In this document: piece after piece, positions 2,769 to 20,884 of the stretch
Layout: each line of letters starts with the position of its first letter
Numbering within the stretch: the stretch's first letter is position 1
Source of the DNA: a virus
Virus record (IMG/VR): IMGVR_UViG_3300021376_000141
Span: 1-39,085 of that record
Reading direction: 5' to 3' (one strand)
Length of the DNA: 39,085 nt
Translations under genes and position numbers: made by a program
The notes under the pieces: model-generated
What the model saw: the letters and a program-made list of their open reading frames with translations, nothing else
Told to the model about the DNA's origin: nothing
Databases searched by the model: none

Positions 2769-2805
2769 AAAAAAGGGAGCACCCACCACCTTGGCAGATG
2801 CTCCC
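2769..2805 (-). terminator. Intrinsic terminator after the major capsid gene
   Basis: On the minus strand a GGGAGCA / TGCTCCC stem (2799-2805 with 2775-2781) is followed at once by six T residues (2774-2769). The 17-base loop can form a further small helix. It lies 18 bases after the capsid stop codon and just before the next ATG. It probably lowers transcription of the tail genes relative to capsid. The strength cannot be judged by eye. Confidence 0.7.
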
Positions 2806-2822
2806 CGTCTTGAGATTTAGGA

Positions 2823-10657: not shown

Positions 10658-10714
10658 GGTGAGTGGGGGATCGTCAACGGTGTTCCATCGAGGGGCGAGG
10701 TGCCTCCGTGGGAG

Positions 10715-10789
10715 CTTAACGCATACGATCTTAACGCATACCGTGCCTTCAGTTTAACGTTTTGCGTACTCGAGGTTGAGGGTTTAACG
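10715..10789. repeat. TTAACG repeat cluster with an exact 12-bp tandem repeat
   Basis: CTTAACGCATAC occurs exactly at 10715-10726 and 10730-10741, with a 15-base period. Two further TTAACG copies lie at 10754-10759 and 10784-10789, all in the same orientation. The spacing of the four copies is 15, 23 and 30 bases. The cluster lies just upstream of the first late gene. Iterons for an origin, or binding sites for a late regulator such as the LacI-type protein, are the main options. Confidence 0.55.
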
Positions 10790-10890
10790 CGAGGGACGTT
10801 CTAGACTTTAGTGGCAGCGGACGCTCGCCCGTAAAGGCGACTAGCGTTCCGCCTGCCATCTGCAACCGACGCGGAGTGTAGCGGAGCTAG

Positions 10891-10998
10891 GGAGGAGCGA
10901 CTAAGCGAGCGCAGTGAAGCGCAGGAGGAGCGACTGACCGGAGCACAGCGCAGGGAAGGAGGTTCCCTGAAGGATCCGCTGCTGCAGCACAGCGCAGG
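10891..10998. repeat. GC-rich direct repeats and hairpin
   Basis: GGAGGAGCGACT is repeated exactly at 10891-10902 and 10924-10935, and AGCACAGCGCAGG at 10942-10954 and 10986-10998. Between them a perfect seven-base hairpin CAGGGAA / TTCCCTG (10951-10957 with 10963-10969, loop GGAGG) overlaps the second repeat. The plus strand is strongly purine-biased here. This looks like structured non-coding sequence rather than a gene. Confidence 0.55.
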
Positions 10999-11042
10999 CA
11001 GTGGCGCCGAAGTGTGTTGATGATGGTCGGCGATAGACACAC

Positions 11043-11059
11043 CTCTCCTTTAAGGAGAG
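11043..11059. other. Perfect hairpin CTCTCCTT-T-AAGGAGAG
   Basis: An eight-base inverted repeat with a one-base spacer spans 11043-11059. In RNA from the minus strand it would present AAAGGAGAG, a Shine-Dalgarno-like sequence, buried in the stem. No T-run follows on either strand, so it is not a standard terminator. A regulatory hairpin or protein-binding palindrome is possible. Confidence 0.45.
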
Positions 11060-11254
11060 TTAGGGGTGGTCTGCAATGCGCGTCCCTGTTTCCCGCGGGC
11101 TGCTTCAGGCTTTACGGCCACGCGCCCACGGGGGACGGCATACGGTTCGTGCGCCTGTGGCTACGAAGCCGACCACGTTCCGGCTGTGCCGGATTCTACT
11201 CACCTTCCCTGCGCAATTTTCAAGCTCTTCTTTTAGGCTTTTGCGTAAAGCCCG

Positions 11255-11437
11255 TCACATCAGGCAGTTGCTCGAGCACTTTTTGAGCATCTCCGGATGT
11301 TCCGACCATAGGATGGTGGCATGGATGATGTCCGCGATGTGTGCTGGAACGCGTTTCCCGCGTTTGCTGGTGGCGTTGCGGGTGTGTGTGACGATGACGG
11401 TCGAACTGCAGAGGCTGATCGTCAGGGTGGGTGGCAT
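11255..11437 (-). CDS. Small hypothetical protein at the end of the early block
   Basis: A possible 60-residue product (MPPTLTISLCSS ... GKRVPAHIADIIHATILWSEHPEMLKK...). The ATG lies 5 bases after the stop of the small membrane protein gene, with GAAG in a possible ribosome-binding position. The N-terminus is rich in Ser/Thr/Val and the C-terminal half is plausibly helical. No family is recognised. It would be the last gene of the early operon. The short length leaves real doubt. Confidence 0.4.
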   Translation of the reverse strand: MPPTLTISLCSSTVIVTHTRNATSKRGKRVPAHIADIIHATILWSEHPEMLKKCSSNCLM

Positions 11438-11442
11438 GTGCT

Positions 11443-11628
11443 TCAGATTGACAGCAGGAGCCCGACGTAGGCGAGCGTGGCGAGCAGAGTGCCGGGATAG
11501 AGTCCGCACCAGAGGATGAGCTCTCGCGTGTCGGGCTGGAGGCGTTGCTGGAGCAGGAATGCGCTGGCGAGGACCAGACCCGATCCGATGCCACCGACAA
11601 GGTGCAGTGCTGGGGCCGAATCGATCAT
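11443..11628 (-). CDS. Small two-helix membrane protein coupled to the helicase
   Basis: A 61-residue protein with two predicted membrane segments: LHLVGGIGSGLVLASAFLL (about 8-26) and LILWCGLYPGTLLATLAYVG (about 37-56). A short polar turn (QQRLQPDTRE) separates them. The ATG at 11628 overlaps the helicase stop (ATGA), so expression is probably coupled. Small hydrophobic phage proteins of this shape can be holin-like or superinfection-related. Its place among replication genes, far from the lysis cassette, gives no clear function. Confidence 0.6.
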   Translation of the reverse strand: MIDSAPALHLVGGIGSGLVLASAFLLQQRLQPDTRELILWCGLYPGTLLATLAYVGLLLSI

Positions 11629-13532
11629 GCGGTGGGGGTGGCTGGTGTGGTCGGCTTCTGGGAGAGGTCGCCGTCGTTGAGCAGGTCGAGGTTGGCGAGT
11701 TTGTCCTCGACGACGGCTGCGACGCGTTCCTCGACGGTGCCCGCGGCATAGACGAGGCGCTGCAGGGACTTGGACTTGCCACCGGCACGGTGGACTCGGC
11801 CTAGGGTCTGGCGCAGGTCGACGGCGGACCATGTGGGGCTGATGAGAGCCAGTCGTGGGTGGTTGCCGTTGAGGTCGTGGAGGCTGATTCCGACGCCGCC
11901 AGCTTGGATGTTGGCGATGATGACGCGAGCCTTGTCGGACTGGAACGCTTCGATGGCGGCCTGTCGTTCCTCGGCGGTTTGACCACCGTGGATGAGGACT
12001 GGATGTGCGCCGAGGGTGTCGTTGATGGCGTTGGAGAGTGTGTCGATGGAGTCTTGGAAGTTGAGGAAGATGGCGACCGAGAGACCCTGCTCGACGGCGT
12101 CGGTGGTCAGCTCTGAGAGAAGAGGGAGTTTGGCTGCCTCGGAGATCTGACGTGCGCGGAGCATCAGGGTGAGGTGGCTGTCACCGTCGGTGACCTGCTT
12201 GGCGTGGACTCGGTCGATGGCTTCCTGCGCGAGGCGGTAGGCTTCGTTGATGGCGGCGGTCTTGCCGTTGAGCTCGACGGTCTGGACGGTGATCTGGGTC
12301 TCTGGGAAGGCGTCACCCAGCTCGGACACGCGGATGCGGGTGCCCTTGTGTGGAAAAATGCGGGAGTGGATACCTGAGAGGTGGTGTGCGGATCCGGAGA
12401 ATCGGATGCCTCCGAAGTCACCGCGACGGCATCCATTACGTTCGCACCAAGACCAGTGCTCGCCGGGGGCGCCGAACAGGCCGAGAAGGTAGCCTAGGGC
12501 CTTCATCTCGGTGGGGTCGGTGGCGGCGGTGGCTGAGAGCGCTATGGTGGGGATCTGCTGGCGCTTGGCTGCGATGACCAGCTTGCTGTTCAGGGAGGAC
12601 TGGCCTTTGCAGCGGTGAACCTCGTCGAAGATGATGGCGTTGCAGCCGTCGGAGAGTTCGAGGTTGAAAGTAGTGCTGCCGCGGAGGTCGGTGTGCTGCG
12701 TGGCCCACGGAGTTGAGCCGCGGCGGATGAGCTCGTAGTTGATGGCCTCGAGCTGGAGGCCGAAGTGCTTGGCGGCCTTCTTCCACGACGGGACGACTGC
12801 TTTGGGGCAGACGACCAGTGGCTTGAGGTTGAGCTCGCGACAGGCGGCCAGCGCGGAGTAGGTCTTGCCGGTGCCGACATCGGACGCGTCGAGGACGGCG
12901 CCGTGCGCACGCAGGGAGGCCACCAGACGCTGCACAGACGGGATCTGGTAGGCTAGAAGCCCGACGGGGTTGTCGAGGTCCTGCAGGGTAATCGTGGGCG
13001 CCTGCACAGGCTTGGCTGCGGGCTGGCTGGGATTCTTCCAGAGAGAGACCTGCCAATCGCCTCGCTGGCTCTGCGAGACGCTGTAGCCGCGGGCCTTGAG
13101 GTCTTCCTTGTCGCGTTTCCAGATCGACCAGAAAAGGTGGCCGACGGGGATGATGGCCGACGACACGATACGCGGTCCGTGTTTGGTCGACACTGAGCGT
13201 TCGGAGCCCCACGCGAGGCCCCAGCCTTCGATGTTGGCGATGCCCGCGGTGGCGTTCTGGATCTCGGCTTCGGCTGCGGCTTCTGCGGCCTGCTTTGAGA
13301 AGACTGGGATCTCGAGATCTGCGAGCTGGGTGTTGCGATAGATGGAGGCGATTCGCCATGCGAGGCCGAACTGTGCGGGCGTCCAGCGTCCGATCTGGCG
13401 AGCCAGCGAGTGGCCTGCCTCGACGTCGCGGGATGAGAATCCGACCTCGTTCTCGACGCTTGCGTGATCGTGATCGAGATTGGCGAGGCGCTTGATGGCG
13501 ATCTCGAGCTTGTCTTTGAGTTCTGCGTTCAT
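11625..13532 (-). CDS. SNF2-type (superfamily 2) helicase
   Basis: A 635-residue DNA-dependent ATPase. After an N-terminal domain of about 190 residues come motif I SDVGTGKT (217-224), motif II DEVH (303-306), motif III SAT (333-335), and motif V ANIQAGGVGISL (540-551). Motif VI QTLGRVHRAGGKS (575-587) and a short acidic tail follow. This order fits SNF2/DEAD-box helicases found in many phages for replication fork or recombination work. The start chosen is ATG at 13532, behind an A/C-only leader. The frame extends upstream through the previous gene, but that extension is not protein-like. The N-terminal domain (SSRDVEAGHSLARQIGRW, then TPAQFGLAWRIAS) is a zinc-free helical domain often fused to these helicases. 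Confidence 0.85.
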   Translation of the reverse strand: MNAELKDKLEIAIKRLANLDHDHASVENEVGFSSRDVEAGHSLARQIGRWTPAQFGLAWRIASIYRNTQLADLEIPVFSKQAAEAAAEAEIQNATAGIANIEGWGLAWGSERSVSTKHGPRIVSSAIIPVGHLFWSIWKRDKEDLKARGYSVSQSQRGDWQVSLWKNPSQPAAKPVQAPTITLQDLDNPVGLLAYQIPSVQRLVASLRAHGAVLDASDVGTGKTYSALAACRELNLKPLVVCPKAVVPSWKKAAKHFGLQLEAINYELIRRGSTPWATQHTDLRGSTTFNLELSDGCNAIIFDEVHRCKGQSSLNSKLVIAAKRQQIPTIALSATAATDPTEMKALGYLLGLFGAPGEHWSWCERNGCRRGDFGGIRFSGSAHHLSGIHSRIFPHKGTRIRVSELGDAFPETQITVQTVELNGKTAAINEAYRLAQEAIDRVHAKQVTDGDSHLTLMLRARQISEAAKLPLLSELTTDAVEQGLSVAIFLNFQDSIDTLSNAINDTLGAHPVLIHGGQTAEERQAAIEAFQSDKARVIIANIQAGGVGISLHDLNGNHPRLALISPTWSAVDLRQTLGRVHRAGGKSKSLQRLVYAAGTVEERVAAVVEDKLANLDLLNDGDLSQKPTTPATPTA

Positions 13533-14230: not shown

Positions 14231-16279
14231 CTAGATGAACGTGTAGGTGTTCCACTCCTTGCCGCTCTGCTGCGGGGTCTTTGTCGAGAGTCGAGGCTTC
14301 AGTGCGGTCCATCGGGTCTTGGCTTCGTCCTTCGACATACCGAACCGCTCCTGCATGGCCTTGATCATGTCGACGTAGGAGTGCCATTCGCCCGAAAGGC
14401 TGTTCAGATAGTCATCCTCGTCGAACGGGGTCCGTGGTTTGCTGGCCGAGGACTTGCCGAGCTTGACGGTGATCTTCGGCTTGTCGTCCTCCTTCGGCGG
14501 TGGCGGTGCGCACGCGGTCCACGTCTGCAGGCCGTTGCGTCCCCGATCGACGTAGATCGACTCCGACACGTTGCCCTCGTGGTCGACGGCCTCTGCCCTG
14601 CTGCCGCGTTTGAGGAATCGAAGTCGGTACACGTTGTCGGATGGACTTTCAAGGTACACGACGGCGCGTGCCCAGTTGACGAGCTCGGCGGAACCCGACG
14701 CGAGATACTGAAGGTCGGTGGAAGATTTGGAATCGTTCTGACTCGGCTTGCGAACGTGATGCACGACCATCAGGACGACACCAGTGCTCTCTAGGAGCGG
14801 TCCGAGCCAGTTGCGAAGGAACTCGGAGGCCACGCGTTGTTCGCCGATGTCGTCGCCGATGTAGGACAGGAGCGGGTCGATCCAGACCATGTCGGGCTTG
14901 TGCTGGTCGATGAGCGTTTGAAGCCGGTCCACAAAATTCCTCCCTGTATGAACCGTGTCTCGAACGAAGACCATGTTCTCCTGAAGCAGCTTGGCCATGT
15001 CTGGGTCCTTCGGTAGGTGCCCCATCACAGCACCGCGGAACTGCTCCGAGAGGTCTCCGATGTCGTTCTCGGCCTGAATCACCAGAGTCTTTAGGGCCTT
15101 GGACGGCTTGATGCCAAACGGTGATCTGCCCACGGCCCACCCGACTGCAAGCTGCATGGTCAGCGTGCTCTTGCCGATGCCGGACGCCCCGACGATCAGA
15201 CACGAGTGCCCTTTGCAGAGCCACCGGCGTCCGAGGATCTGGTTGGGGTCGGTGGATGGATCGAAGTCCAGAAGGTCCTTGATCCGATACTCGTTGGTGC
15301 CGGTGCTCGCTTGGACCGCCTTCCACTCTGTCCAGCTCTTGGCCCCGACGTGCAACGCCAACAGGGACTGCACGCCTTCGCCACGCTTCATTCCTGCCAA
15401 TCTGGCGAAGCGGGATGGGTTCTTGTTCTTTGCGTCTGGACCGTAGCCTTCAAGGCTCTTCAGGAGCTCGGTGACCCTCGTTGAGTACTCGATGCGGTCC
15501 TTTGCATCGACCTTGACCCACGCATGAAGGCTTTTGCCACCGCTGTAGACGACCGCAGTCGCGGGTATCTGGGAGTGGCTGATGACCTTCCACTGTTCGT
15601 CCAGACTGATGCCATCGAACTCCAGCAGTGCATGCCGGAATGCTGTGACGTCGTTGTCGGTCGACCCTCCGACCTTCATCGGGTTGACGCGGATGTAGGC
15701 GCCGGGATTGCCCTCGCACGACCAGATCTTGTTGGGGTCGCCGTCGCGTGCGTCCAGTTTTGCCAGCCACTCCTCCCTTGATAGGACCAGCCCCTGACCT
15801 GCTGGGATGGCTCGTGGTTCCTTGTCGTCGGTGAAGACAGCCTCGGAGATCGCAACGCCTTCACCCTCGAGGAATGCGGCACGCAGCAGCTTACGGCATC
15901 CGTCCTCCAGTGGCTGGGGGATGGTCTGCTTGGATTCCTGATCCGCGGTGTCAGGAGCCTGTTTGAGCACCACCTTTGTGATCGGCGATGGGAACTGAAT
16001 CGAGTCCTTGTTCGCGTTGATCATGTGGCCCTTTGGCTTCTGATAGTCGGCAGCCTTGGCGATGGCCTGCTCGATCTTGTGATTCAGTTCACGGGGCTTC
16101 CACGGCGGCGTGCAGCGTCGATTCCACTCGTGCATGAGTCCGAGCGCTTCGTTGCCGCCCAGCAGCCAGCCATGGATCAGTGTGTTGGCGACGTAGAAGG
16201 TGTGGTTGTGCCCGCCTTGGTTCTCGACGGCGCCCGGAGTTGCCTCCAGCCACAGTCTTGCTCTTTCGATGATGGTCAT
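14231..16279 (-). CDS. Primase-helicase (AEP-like primase with RecA-like ATPase)
   Basis: A 682-residue replication protein. Residues 1-80 form a helical domain seen in phage and plasmid primases (NQGGHNHTFYVANTLIHGWL, then CTPPWKPRELNHKI). Residues about 185-310 look like an archaeo-eukaryotic-type primase: LLEFDGI (Glu220, Asp222) and VVYSGGKSLHAWVKVDA (His252). Residues 355-545 are a RepA/AAA_25-type ATPase with Walker A GASGIGKST (364-372), Walker B VWIDPLLSY (465-473) and VVHHVRK (505-511). The last 65 residues look like a winged-helix domain. It should prime and unwind DNA for a host polymerase, since none is encoded here. The ATG at 16279 sits behind a leader of only A and C and directly downstream of a terminator-like hairpin. 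Confidence 0.85.
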   Translation of the reverse strand: MTIIERARLWLEATPGAVENQGGHNHTFYVANTLIHGWLLGGNEALGLMHEWNRRCTPPWKPRELNHKIEQAIAKAADYQKPKGHMINANKDSIQFPSPITKVVLKQAPDTADQESKQTIPQPLEDGCRKLLRAAFLEGEGVAISEAVFTDDKEPRAIPAGQGLVLSREEWLAKLDARDGDPNKIWSCEGNPGAYIRVNPMKVGGSTDNDVTAFRHALLEFDGISLDEQWKVISHSQIPATAVVYSGGKSLHAWVKVDAKDRIEYSTRVTELLKSLEGYGPDAKNKNPSRFARLAGMKRGEGVQSLLALHVGAKSWTEWKAVQASTGTNEYRIKDLLDFDPSTDPNQILGRRWLCKGHSCLIVGASGIGKSTLTMQLAVGWAVGRSPFGIKPSKALKTLVIQAENDIGDLSEQFRGAVMGHLPKDPDMAKLLQENMVFVRDTVHTGRNFVDRLQTLIDQHKPDMVWIDPLLSYIGDDIGEQRVASEFLRNWLGPLLESTGVVLMVVHHVRKPSQNDSKSSTDLQYLASGSAELVNWARAVVYLESPSDNVYRLRFLKRGSRAEAVDHEGNVSESIYVDRGRNGLQTWTACAPPPPKEDDKPKITVKLGKSSASKPRTPFDEDDYLNSLSGEWHSYVDMIKAMQERFGMSKDEAKTRWTALKPRLSTKTPQQSGKEWNTYTFI

Positions 16280-16300
16280 GTGTGTGTTGGTTGTGTGCAG

Positions 16301-16364
16301 AAAAGAAAAACGCCGGACCCTGCCTTTCATCCACACATTAGGAGGGGGATGGAGGCCCGGCGTT
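16301..16364 (-). terminator. Terminator or attenuator upstream of the primase-helicase gene
   Basis: On the minus strand AACGCCGG (16364-16357) pairs with CCGGCGTT (16314-16307), and the T-rich run TTTTTCTT follows. Inside, GGATG/CATCC (16347-16351 with 16328-16332) extends the structure. It lies between the 62-residue gene and the primase start at 16279, so it should cut early transcripts or act as a conditional attenuator. Confidence 0.65.
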
Positions 16365-18234: not shown

Positions 18235-19239
18235 TTACTTGTTTTTTGAGAGGTAGCGGATCGCAGGTTTTGTCTCAACCAGTCCGAGCAGGCGATCGTT
18301 GACTGTCTCGTTGGCTTGTTTCCTAGGCATGCCGGTCTTGGCCATAGCGTCGACCAGTTTTGTGATGCTGACCTTGCAGGCGGACAGGAAGACTCCCTGA
18401 GGAAGTCCGAGCCGCTCGAAGGCGTGATTGATGAGTGAGGGGTCGATCTCGCGGGCGCCTGAGCGTTCCTTGAGAGTGTAGCCGGGAATCTTGAAGCCCT
18501 GCACTGCAAGGTCACGCGCCTTGTCCTGCACTGCACTGGCCCACTCCGAGGCGATGTGTGCGAGGTTCAGTGCCGCCGCGACGTTGTCGAGCGTGGCTAG
18601 GTGGAAGTCTTCCAACGGCACCATCTGGAGCCCCTTGGCGACCGTGTTGACGTGGCCGACGATGACCGGACATGTCGCATGGTGCTTGCACCACGAGCAG
18701 TACTCGCTGGCCTTGCACGGAGTGTTCGGGTTGGCGACGGCATCTAGGATCGGGTAAACCAGCCCCTCAGCCTCTTCCCTCGTGATGTCATATCGCTGCA
18801 CCCGACGGGTGTCTCCGTACATGATGTGGACGGTGACCTTCTGGAACCCTTGTAGCTGCATGACGCCCAAAGCGTAGGAGGCCATCTGCTCGCTGTAGTT
18901 GCGCTCGGTCCACTTCAAGTCGAACAACTGATCACCCACCACAACATCAGCAGTCCCGCGAAGCACAAGAGCAGCCCCACGACGCACTTCGAGACCGAAC
19001 TCGGTGTGGATGGTCGCGCCCGGCGTGATGACCGACCGGACGTAGTCGAAGGCCCATAGGACCGCCTCCTGCTCGTGTTCTGGGAGTAGCTCATAGACCT
19101 CGCGCTTGTTGTGGAACAGTTCCTCGAGAGCCGTGTGACGGTCGTTGCCAGCCTCCGTGACCGCGGACGGCCCAGAGGATTCCCACCGCGGGGACTTAGC
19201 CTGCGCCGGTAGGGATGAGGGTCGTGTGACAAAGGTCAT
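18235..19239 (-). CDS. Cas4/RecB-like PD-(D/E)XK nuclease with cysteine cluster
   Basis: A 334-residue exonuclease candidate. The nuclease core shows His35 (GNDRHTALEE), Asp98 (LRGTADVVV), Asp107-x-Lys109 (LFDLKW) and the Tyr115/Gln118 motif (NYSEQMASYALG). Four cysteines follow at 175, 181, 184 and 190 (C-x5-C-x2-C-x5-C), placed like the iron-sulphur cluster of Cas4 and AddB. A C-terminal domain of about 130 residues has PLEDFHLATLDNVAAALNLA and KVSITKLVDAMAKTGM. Its ATG overlaps the stop of the RecT-like gene (ATGA). Exonuclease plus annealing protein is the standard phage recombination pair. There are no adjacent CRISPR genes. Confidence 0.8.
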   Translation of the reverse strand: MTFVTRPSSLPAQAKSPRWESSGPSAVTEAGNDRHTALEELFHNKREVYELLPEHEQEAVLWAFDYVRSVITPGATIHTEFGLEVRRGAALVLRGTADVVVGDQLFDLKWTERNYSEQMASYALGVMQLQGFQKVTVHIMYGDTRRVQRYDITREEAEGLVYPILDAVANPNTPCKASEYCSWCKHHATCPVIVGHVNTVAKGLQMVPLEDFHLATLDNVAAALNLAHIASEWASAVQDKARDLAVQGFKIPGYTLKERSGAREIDPSLINHAFERLGLPQGVFLSACKVSITKLVDAMAKTGMPRKQANETVNDRLLGLVETKPAIRYLSKNK

Positions 19240-20090
19240 TCGGATTTCGGTTCAATGTTCACAGACGACTTGACGGTGGCGATGAAGGACTCCGGCTTGG
19301 CCAGAATCTTCGCAGCACGGGCATCCGAGAGCATGCTGAGATTGCCGTCGGCAGGAATCCAGTTCTTCGACTGGAGGAATGCGCGACCTGCGTGCAGCAG
19401 ATCCGCGTCGGTGAGCAGCTTGAGGATTTGTTTCTGCGGCGTCAGACCCTCCTCTTCGGCAGGCACGACTTCGACGTCGGCGACGTTGACCTCGACAGCG
19501 ACCGCAGCCGGTGCTGGGGCTGTGACAGCGGACGTCGTCACCCCGACGGCAACTGTGGTCGGCGCTGGACGCTGAATGTCTTCGAGCTCCTCCGGAGTGT
19601 AGGTGCCGGTGCAGACTTCCGGCGCGATCATGCGCACGGCCTTGCTGATCAAACGCGCCCTCATCATCTCAGCGGGGAACTTCGCCCATCCCGACCCAGC
19701 CCGCGGAGGCATGAACCCAGCCCGCTTGGCGTCTTCCACAGTGTACGAGAGCTCGATGTCGTTTCCGTCATAGGTCCATCGGGCCTTGGCGCCGTTGTCG
19801 TCAAACTGCAGCCAGCGCACCTTGCCTCCCCTTTCGCGGTAGAGGGCGAGCATCGCGTCGGCCCGAAGGCTGAGTTTGCCGCCGATGATGTGATAGTGCT
19901 TCGCGAGCTCGAGCGGAGCCTTGCGCTCGACTAGGCACTGCATGGCTAAGATGGCGCCCTGCTCAATGCGTTCGCACCCAAACATTCCGGAACGTGCGAT
20001 CCACTCACCCAATTGGGTGGCGGCAGTCATTGGGTCGCTCACCTTGTCATAGGTGCTGACGACGAGACTTTGGTTCTGTTGTGTAGTCAT
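19236..20090 (-). CDS. RecT-like single-strand annealing protein
   Basis: A 284-residue protein resembling phage RecT-type annealing proteins. The core shows ERKAPLELAKHYHIIGGKLSL and RADAMLALYRERGGKVRW. GFMPPRAGSGWAKFPAEMM (about 130-148) then RARLISKAVRMIAPEVCTG and TYTPEEL follow. A Val/Ala/Pro-rich linker and a small C-terminal helical domain (LLHAGRAFLQSKNWIPADGNL) complete it. It should pair complementary strands for recombination-dependent replication and repair. It is flanked by the nuclease downstream and the ribbon-helix-helix gene upstream, both by ATGA overlaps. Family placement is by sequence pattern, so Bet- or Erf-like relatives cannot be excluded. Confidence 0.75.
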   Translation of the reverse strand: MTTQQNQSLVVSTYDKVSDPMTAATQLGEWIARSGMFGCERIEQGAILAMQCLVERKAPLELAKHYHIIGGKLSLRADAMLALYRERGGKVRWLQFDDNGAKARWTYDGNDIELSYTVEDAKRAGFMPPRAGSGWAKFPAEMMRARLISKAVRMIAPEVCTGTYTPEELEDIQRPAPTTVAVGVTTSAVTAPAPAAVAVEVNVADVEVVPAEEEGLTPQKQILKLLTDADLLHAGRAFLQSKNWIPADGNLSMLSDARAAKILAKPESFIATVKSSVNIEPKSE

Positions 20091-20236
20091 GGTTGCTTCT
20101 TGATGTGTTGTTCGATCAGGTGTGAGACGAAGTGACCAACTTTGTAGCCGCGGAGCCTACAATAGGCGGCGAGCATGTTGTGGGTCTCTTCCGAGATGTT
20201 GACCGTCTTGGTCTTGGTCGGAGCTTTCCGTGCCAT
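20087..20236 (-). CDS. Ribbon-helix-helix (Arc/MetJ-like) regulator
   Basis: A 49-residue protein. After a basic start (ARKAPTKTKT) comes VNISEETHNMLAAYCRLRGY, then KVGHFVSHLIEQHIKK. This is the strand-helix-helix pattern of Arc/CopG-type dimers, where TVNIS would form the DNA-contacting strand. The ATG at 20236 lies about 14 bases from a perfect palindrome, and the stop overlaps the RecT-like start (ATGA). It is the first gene of the early block, so it likely represses its own operon. The gene is short, but the fold pattern and tight coupling make it convincing. Confidence 0.75.
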   Translation of the reverse strand: MARKAPTKTKTVNISEETHNMLAAYCRLRGYKVGHFVSHLIEQHIKKQP

Positions 20237-20240
20237 GACC

Positions 20241-20273
20241 TAGATAGTGGCTCCCTAAATCTAGGGAGGTCAA
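20241..20273 (-). promoter_or_regulatory. Early promoter with palindromic operator
   Basis: A perfect 7-base inverted repeat, CTCCCTA-AATC-TAGGGAG (20251-20268), lies in the 48-base gap before the ribbon-helix-helix gene. On the minus strand TTGACC (20273-20268) abuts it, matching the -35 consensus at five of six bases. Candidate -10 boxes are CACTAT (20249-20244, 18-base spacer) and TATCTA (20246-20241, 21-base spacer). An operator between -35 and -10 fits steric repression by the small regulator encoded just downstream. The -10 assignment is weak. Confidence 0.5.
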
Positions 20274-20284
20274 GCACTTTTTTG

Positions 20285-20884
20285 CTAGTCGGGCTTCAGT
20301 CGGTTCAACCGCGTGATCTCCACGCATCCGTACTGCTCCGGCACGTCAGGGAAGTCGGTGGCCTGTCCTAAGCCGTCATTGGCTCGCTCATTGGAGACCT
20401 GATAGCGGATCTGATAGGAGGTCTTCTTCTTGGGCCTGACGATCGCGTTGATGTCCAGCACACCCTGCACGTTATGCGCAAAGTTACCGTTCAGGCCGTA
20501 GCATTCGGTGACTCCGTCAGTACCGTTCCAGAGCTGTAGCCGAGTCTCGTCGGTGTGATGGAAAACGAAGACCGCCTTGATTTTGTAGATGCCGGGATCG
20601 AGCGTGAACACGCTACCAGACAGCATGTCCACCGTCTCGCCATCATCGTAGGTGACCGTATTGAGCGGCCTAGGTGACCACGTCGTGTTGGTCTGGTCTG
20701 CGGTGACCGAGGTGAGGTCTGCGGTGTACTCGGTGGAATCTGCGGTGATCGTGTGCGTGGCCGACCCGCCATCAGTTCCGGTGGGATACTGGACCTCAAG
20801 GATAGCCGACCGAATCAGCAACCCATCGACGTCGGACCGCAGCTTGTTGGTCAACGAGGAGCTTGTCTTCGGATCGTAGGCCAT
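20285..20884 (-). CDS. Hypothetical virion-associated beta-rich protein
   Basis: A 199-residue protein at the end of the late block. After an N-terminal helix region the rest is strand-rich (GSVFTLDPGIYKIKAVFVFHH, then TDETRLQLWNGTDG ... YQIRYQVSNERANDGLG). This is reminiscent of jelly-roll or C1q-like domains of phage surface proteins. It ends in EQYGCVEITRLNRLKPD. It is separated by three bases from the large polyvalent gene. A head decoration or receptor-contact role is possible. I do not recognise a named family. Confidence 0.6.
   Translation of the reverse strand: MAYDPKTSSSLTNKLRSDVDGLLIRSAILEVQYPTGTDGGSATHTITADSTEYTADLTSVTADQTNTTWSPRPLNTVTYDDGETVDMLSGSVFTLDPGIYKIKAVFVFHHTDETRLQLWNGTDGVTECYGLNGNFAHNVQGVLDINAIVRPKKKTSYQIRYQVSNERANDGLGQATDFPDVPEQYGCVEITRLNRLKPD

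Follow-up and report, generated by a model that had tools for sequence, protein, structure and literature searches.

The locus and its first gene

The window, that is, the whole stretch of 39,085 nucleotides that was analysed, carries a run of minus-strand genes headed by a 49-codon open reading frame (Table 1). The strand of this small gene, for which a ribbon-helix-helix (RHH) product is predicted, was not given by the initial annotation, and its description there as the first gene of a replication operon was borne out by the gene order and by the annotations of the genes that follow. After RecT and the exonuclease these are, on the same strand, a small protein without an assignment, a Holliday junction resolvase-like protein, a PDDEXK endonuclease and the primase/helicase. 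The structural genes lie upstream of the RHH promoter and no tyrosine integrase was recognised in the phage. The major head protein gene is closely followed by a strong terminator-like 15-pair stem with a T run behind it (window 2774-2806, minus strand), and about 1 kb between a helicase-like gene and the gene preceding the terminase genes (window 10658-11640) holds no clear long minus-strand gene.

Table 1. Positions of the features at the locus, in window coordinates.
Feature	Position	Strand	Remark
RHH protein gene, 49 aa, ATG start	20087..20236	minus	ORF; probable autorepressor
-35 hexamer TTGACC	20268..20273	minus	CTTGAC unchanged across the four closest loci
Inverted repeat CTCCCTA-GATT-TAGGGAG, probable operator	20251..20268	minus	perfect 7-base arms, 4-base spacer
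-10-like CACTAT	20244..20249	minus	18 bases after the -35; CA[C/G]TATCT common to the four closest loci
7-base gap, -10 to ATG	20237..20243	minus	without conserved Shine-Dalgarno
64-base block identical in L001	20186..20249	minus	-10 to codon 17
RecT-family annealing protein	19236..20090	minus	ATG overlaps RHH stop codon (ATGA)
PD-(D/E)XK exonuclease	18235..19239	minus	DUF2800 / phrog_69
Primase/helicase	14231..16336	minus	same gene block

Searches of public phage records found no DNA similarity to the window. The RecT protein of phage P8625, a lytic siphovirus (Verrucomicrobia phage), matched the window RecT at 52% over 56% of the length, and in P8625 the RHH gene is absent from the position before RecT. 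A genome scan for relatives of RecT brought up no more than two metagenome bins, one Opitutae and one Planctomycetia, which leaves the host uncertain.

Read on the minus strand, the upstream region is TTGACC-TCCCTAGATTTAGGGAGC-CACTAT-CTAGGTC-ATG followed by the 49-codon ORF. This confirms the earlier assignment of a TTGACC -35 hexamer and a perfect CTCCCTA/TAGGGAG palindrome before the ATG. The inverted repeat shares one base with the -35 hexamer and lies between it and the -10-like CACTAT. A standard sigma-70 scan did not report a promoter before the RHH gene because the -10 element matches the consensus at only 3 of 6 positions. The pattern CTTGAC-N19-CANTATCT-N4/5-ATGGC was found in only three contigs of IMG/VR, in every case directly before an RHH gene. 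Taken alone the 7-base repeat is weak evidence, as about 4% of shuffled upstream regions hold a repeat as good (P about 0.04), and the window contains 23 perfect 7-base repeats with a spacer of 0-8 bases, two of them with a spacer of 4. The palindrome was also considered as an intrinsic terminator and rejected since no T run follows it. A further inverted repeat, CCTAGAT/ATCTAGG, lies across the -10 and is confined to the window and L001.

The secondary structure predicted for the 49-residue protein consists of a strand at about residues 8-15 and helices at 16-29 and 33-47. Its sequence matches, all sub-threshold, were mostly to RHH families, namely ParG, the RepB regulator (RepB-RCR_reg, RepB/CopG-type), the Omega repressor, HicB, SvtR and MazE7. 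A monomer model built from six homologues (mean pLDDT 79, pTM 0.45) formed both helices and left the N-terminal strand unformed. Almost all structural matches of the model were RHH chains, the top ones including Arc, CopG, PutA, AmrZ and ParG, with residues 7-49 superposing on Arc, PutA and CopG chains at Z 4.8-5.6. The weak but consistent sequence matches and the structural matches of the monomer model together support the RHH fold that the initial annotation had claimed, and the fold prediction it proposed as a check, made here for a single chain, gave the same answer. Arc was among the best structural matches and residues 7-47 of the model aligned with Arc 7-47. Thr9, Thr11 and Asn13 of the window protein correspond in this alignment to the known DNA contacts of Arc, namely Gln9, Asn11 and Arg13.

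The plasmid RHH regulators CopG, Omega and ParG have the predicted fold and a weak sequence similarity in common with the window protein. Their operators are series of short repeats, whereas the window offers a single inverted repeat in a phage context. A type II antitoxin with an RHH domain was considered and set aside, as no toxin gene was found beside the RHH gene: RecT lies downstream, and the upstream gene encodes a protein of 199 aa that matched no family. The MazE6 antitoxin, whose 49-residue RHH domain binds an 18-bp site in its own promoter (PMC9477884), resembles the window protein in the size of 49 residues and the window's candidate site in its 18 bp, but the window RHH gene has RecT as its neighbour instead of a toxin partner.

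The inverted repeat in related loci

Relatives were gathered by RecT searches in IMG/VR as loci where a small RHH gene immediately precedes RecT. The apparent RHH relatives L008-L011 were discarded because the matching stretch is part of a large helicase-like ORF. The window, L001, L002 and L003 all keep the blocks CTTGAC and CA[C/G]TATCT and the 6-7 bases up to the ATG, and the intervening 19 bases from one block to the other differ. In this interval the window and L001 have TCCCTA-GATT-TAGGG[A/G], and L002 and L003 have CTGTAA-TTTT-TT[A/G]CAG, the centre of the inverted repeat and its 4-base spacer being identical in position in all four loci. The L002 repeat is perfect with 6-base arms, and the L003 version has one mismatch. 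Between the window and L002 five base pairs are altered on both sides with complementarity retained. The probability of the L002 palindrome at this fixed register is about 5.5e-5. Given this perfect repeat of other letters in L002 at an unchanged register, the repeat of the window stands above chance.

The altered letters of the repeat coincide with a change in a predicted DNA-contact residue. Residue 13, which corresponds in position to Arc Arg13, is Asn in the window and L001 and Gln in L002 and L003. The symmetric change of letters and the change at residue 13 have the look, in these sequences, of a changed repressor-operator pair. The evidence is good but not overwhelming because the change of symmetry represents one event between two pairs of loci.

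In the same four loci 6-7 bases separate the end of the -10 from the start codon, and no conserved Shine-Dalgarno sequence precedes the RHH gene among the relatives compared. As transcription usually starts 6-7 bases after the -10, the transcript would begin at the RHH start codon. From this arrangement the RHH operon transcript is probably leaderless or near-leaderless.

The positions of the L001 and L003 repeats that depart from Watson-Crick pairing are T-G in the sense orientation, and such deviations would also be tolerated by an RNA stem. The repeat might then act as RNA, with a stem in transcripts reading through from the upstream structural genes hiding the RHH start codon and translation proceeding only from the leaderless transcript. 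RNA folding of the region was better than that of shuffled sequences in all four loci (z -2.0 to -3.4), and in these folds a stem includes or adjoins the RHH start codon. However, the design of the outer stems is not the same in one pair of loci as in the other, there are only a few T-G deviations and chance would often produce them, and a repeat located between the -35 and the -10 is missing from the transcript of the RHH promoter. A role as RNA is distinctly improbable.

Beyond these nearest relatives no palindrome was seen at the register of the window in L004, L005 or L024-L033, all of which keep the RHH gene before RecT. Conservation of the palindrome, for which the initial annotation had proposed a search upstream in relatives, held for the nearest three only. 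The operator in the L004/L005 and L024-L033 clades may be of another form, and most of L025-L033 keep a GGTATCT block near the start codon. L028 has a different perfect repeat, AAGTACA-N6-TGTACTT, overlapping CTTGAC, which is suggestive and cannot be aligned to the other loci. Group 2 has a conserved upstream CTGTAG element, and the more distant L125 (L125:1450-1500) carries the reverse complement, CTACAG, instead. Direct-repeat operators were looked for by eye in the other clades and were not established.

The gene just upstream of the promoter (window 20285-20884) occurs in exchangeable types. In a comparison taking in the window, L001, L002, L003, L025 and L026, similar RHH genes carried different versions of this gene. 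Since the upstream genes differ beside very similar RHH genes, the boundary looks like a module junction.

Probable autorepression of the early operon

The above results indicate that the RHH protein is likely to be an Arc-like autorepressor with its candidate operator in the early promoter. A symmetric site is present by position inside the promoter of the protein's own operon, between the -35 and the -10. That its letters change symmetrically together with Asn13 to Gln is good evidence for the operator of a dimer and hence for autorepression of the Arc or MobC kind. Autorepression through the palindrome, an early suggestion for this locus, is supported indirectly by the compensatory change in the relatives' sequences rather than demonstrated. 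The RHH dimer would bind the inverted repeat by inserting a two-stranded beta-sheet into its major groove, and would block RNA polymerase there, between the -35 and the -10. At the start of infection the repressor would be absent and the promoter open. The RHH gene would be transcribed first and translated from its leaderless start, and as dimers accumulated the promoter would close, capping expression of RecT, the exonuclease and the replication genes.

The operator of the Arc repressor of phage P22 lies between the -35 and the -10. Arc resembles the window protein in being an RHH protein of about 50 residues encoded by the first gene of the operon it controls, with this same placement of the (here putative) operator. 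The two proteins share only about 15% identity, and the target of Arc is the antirepressor operon, in a temperate phage, whereas the operon of the window protein is RecT/exonuclease/replication in a phage where no tyrosine integrase was recognised. Youderian 1982, a paper cited in PMC2629481, names autogenous regulation by arc in its title. MobC of plasmid RA3 is an RHH protein that autorepresses its own operon from an imperfect palindrome between the -35 and the -10, and promoter conservation among MobC relatives is lost around the operator (PMC4175270). The window locus is alike in its RHH protein, in the location of its palindrome and in the break of promoter conservation around the candidate operator. 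MobC also aids conjugative transfer (PMC4175270), whereas the window locus is without a relaxase.

The MobC precedent for two roles in one RHH protein (PMC4175270) also bears on a reading in which the window protein, like MobC or ParG, would serve replication or recombination as an auxiliary DNA-binding or architectural factor, its binding at the promoter being incidental or secondary. Its closest sequence matches are to plasmid partition and replication proteins (ParG, RepB regulator) and its gene adjoins RecT in the relatives found. Against this, the palindrome coincides exactly with the promoter spacer and in the relatives is altered together with the predicted contact residue, and the auxiliary role is very unlikely.

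The initial annotation had further proposed that the phage may use the protein as its early-late switch. In such a role it would be a wider regulator, shutting the early operon and acting at other promoters. The RHH gene does lie at the junction of the structural and replication blocks, all on one strand, where a switch could sit, and no other early regulator was recognised. However, the window contains no second operator within 3 mismatches, the records of two relatives contain no second good copy of their own operator, and no late promoter carrying such a site was found. The more distant relatives, moreover, keep the RHH gene without a palindrome at that register. The proposed switch is therefore without support and its likelihood is slight. 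A single candidate site per genome, in the window and two relatives, fits local autoregulation and favours negative feedback on the early operon over a late-gene switch.

The Arc-type control loop is itself already familiar. What is unusual is that close relatives keep the place of the repeat and change its letters. The loci would offer a natural repressor pair with matching, symmetrically different putative operators in otherwise similar phages, and such a pair would be a clean system for how RHH proteins change specificity. They also mark a likely early-gene control point in a group of uncultivated phages whose RecT is distantly related to that of Verrucomicrobia phage P8625.

Conservation of the first 17 codons

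The 64-base block running from the -10 to codon 17 is the longest identical run between the window and L001 in 16 kb of alignable DNA, which aligned at 79%. Codons 1-17 of the RHH gene correspond to window 20186-20236 and L001:1415-1465. In nine loci of group 2 (L024-L033 without L028) these codons never vary, and in the same nine loci 60% of the residue-invariant RecT codons vary synonymously. Adding the more distant L125 gave synonymous variation at 2 of 15 codons versus 133 of 188 (Fisher p 1.6e-5), a figure of the kind that shared ancestry inflates. In two separate clades, the start of the RHH gene lacks synonymous change, in contrast to RecT and to the remaining part of the RHH gene, which vary.

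This pattern in the sequences could be caused by a nucleotide-level function or by exchange of a small cassette. RNA structure in the first 61 bases of the gene was tried as the cause and rejected, with z near 0 in L002 and L025 and -2.0 in the window. A further reading, which is unlikely, is that promoter, operator and DNA-reading arm form a compact specificity cassette of about 100 bp. It would reach from the -35 to codon 17, with the operator letters changing along with the contact residues and with codons 1-17 also held synonymously for a second function, e.g. an intragenic binding site or a leaderless-translation signal. A separate 63-base run, not conserved likewise in group 2, is identical between the window (19181-19243) and L001 and takes in the RecT end together with the initial ∼18 codons of the exonuclease gene.
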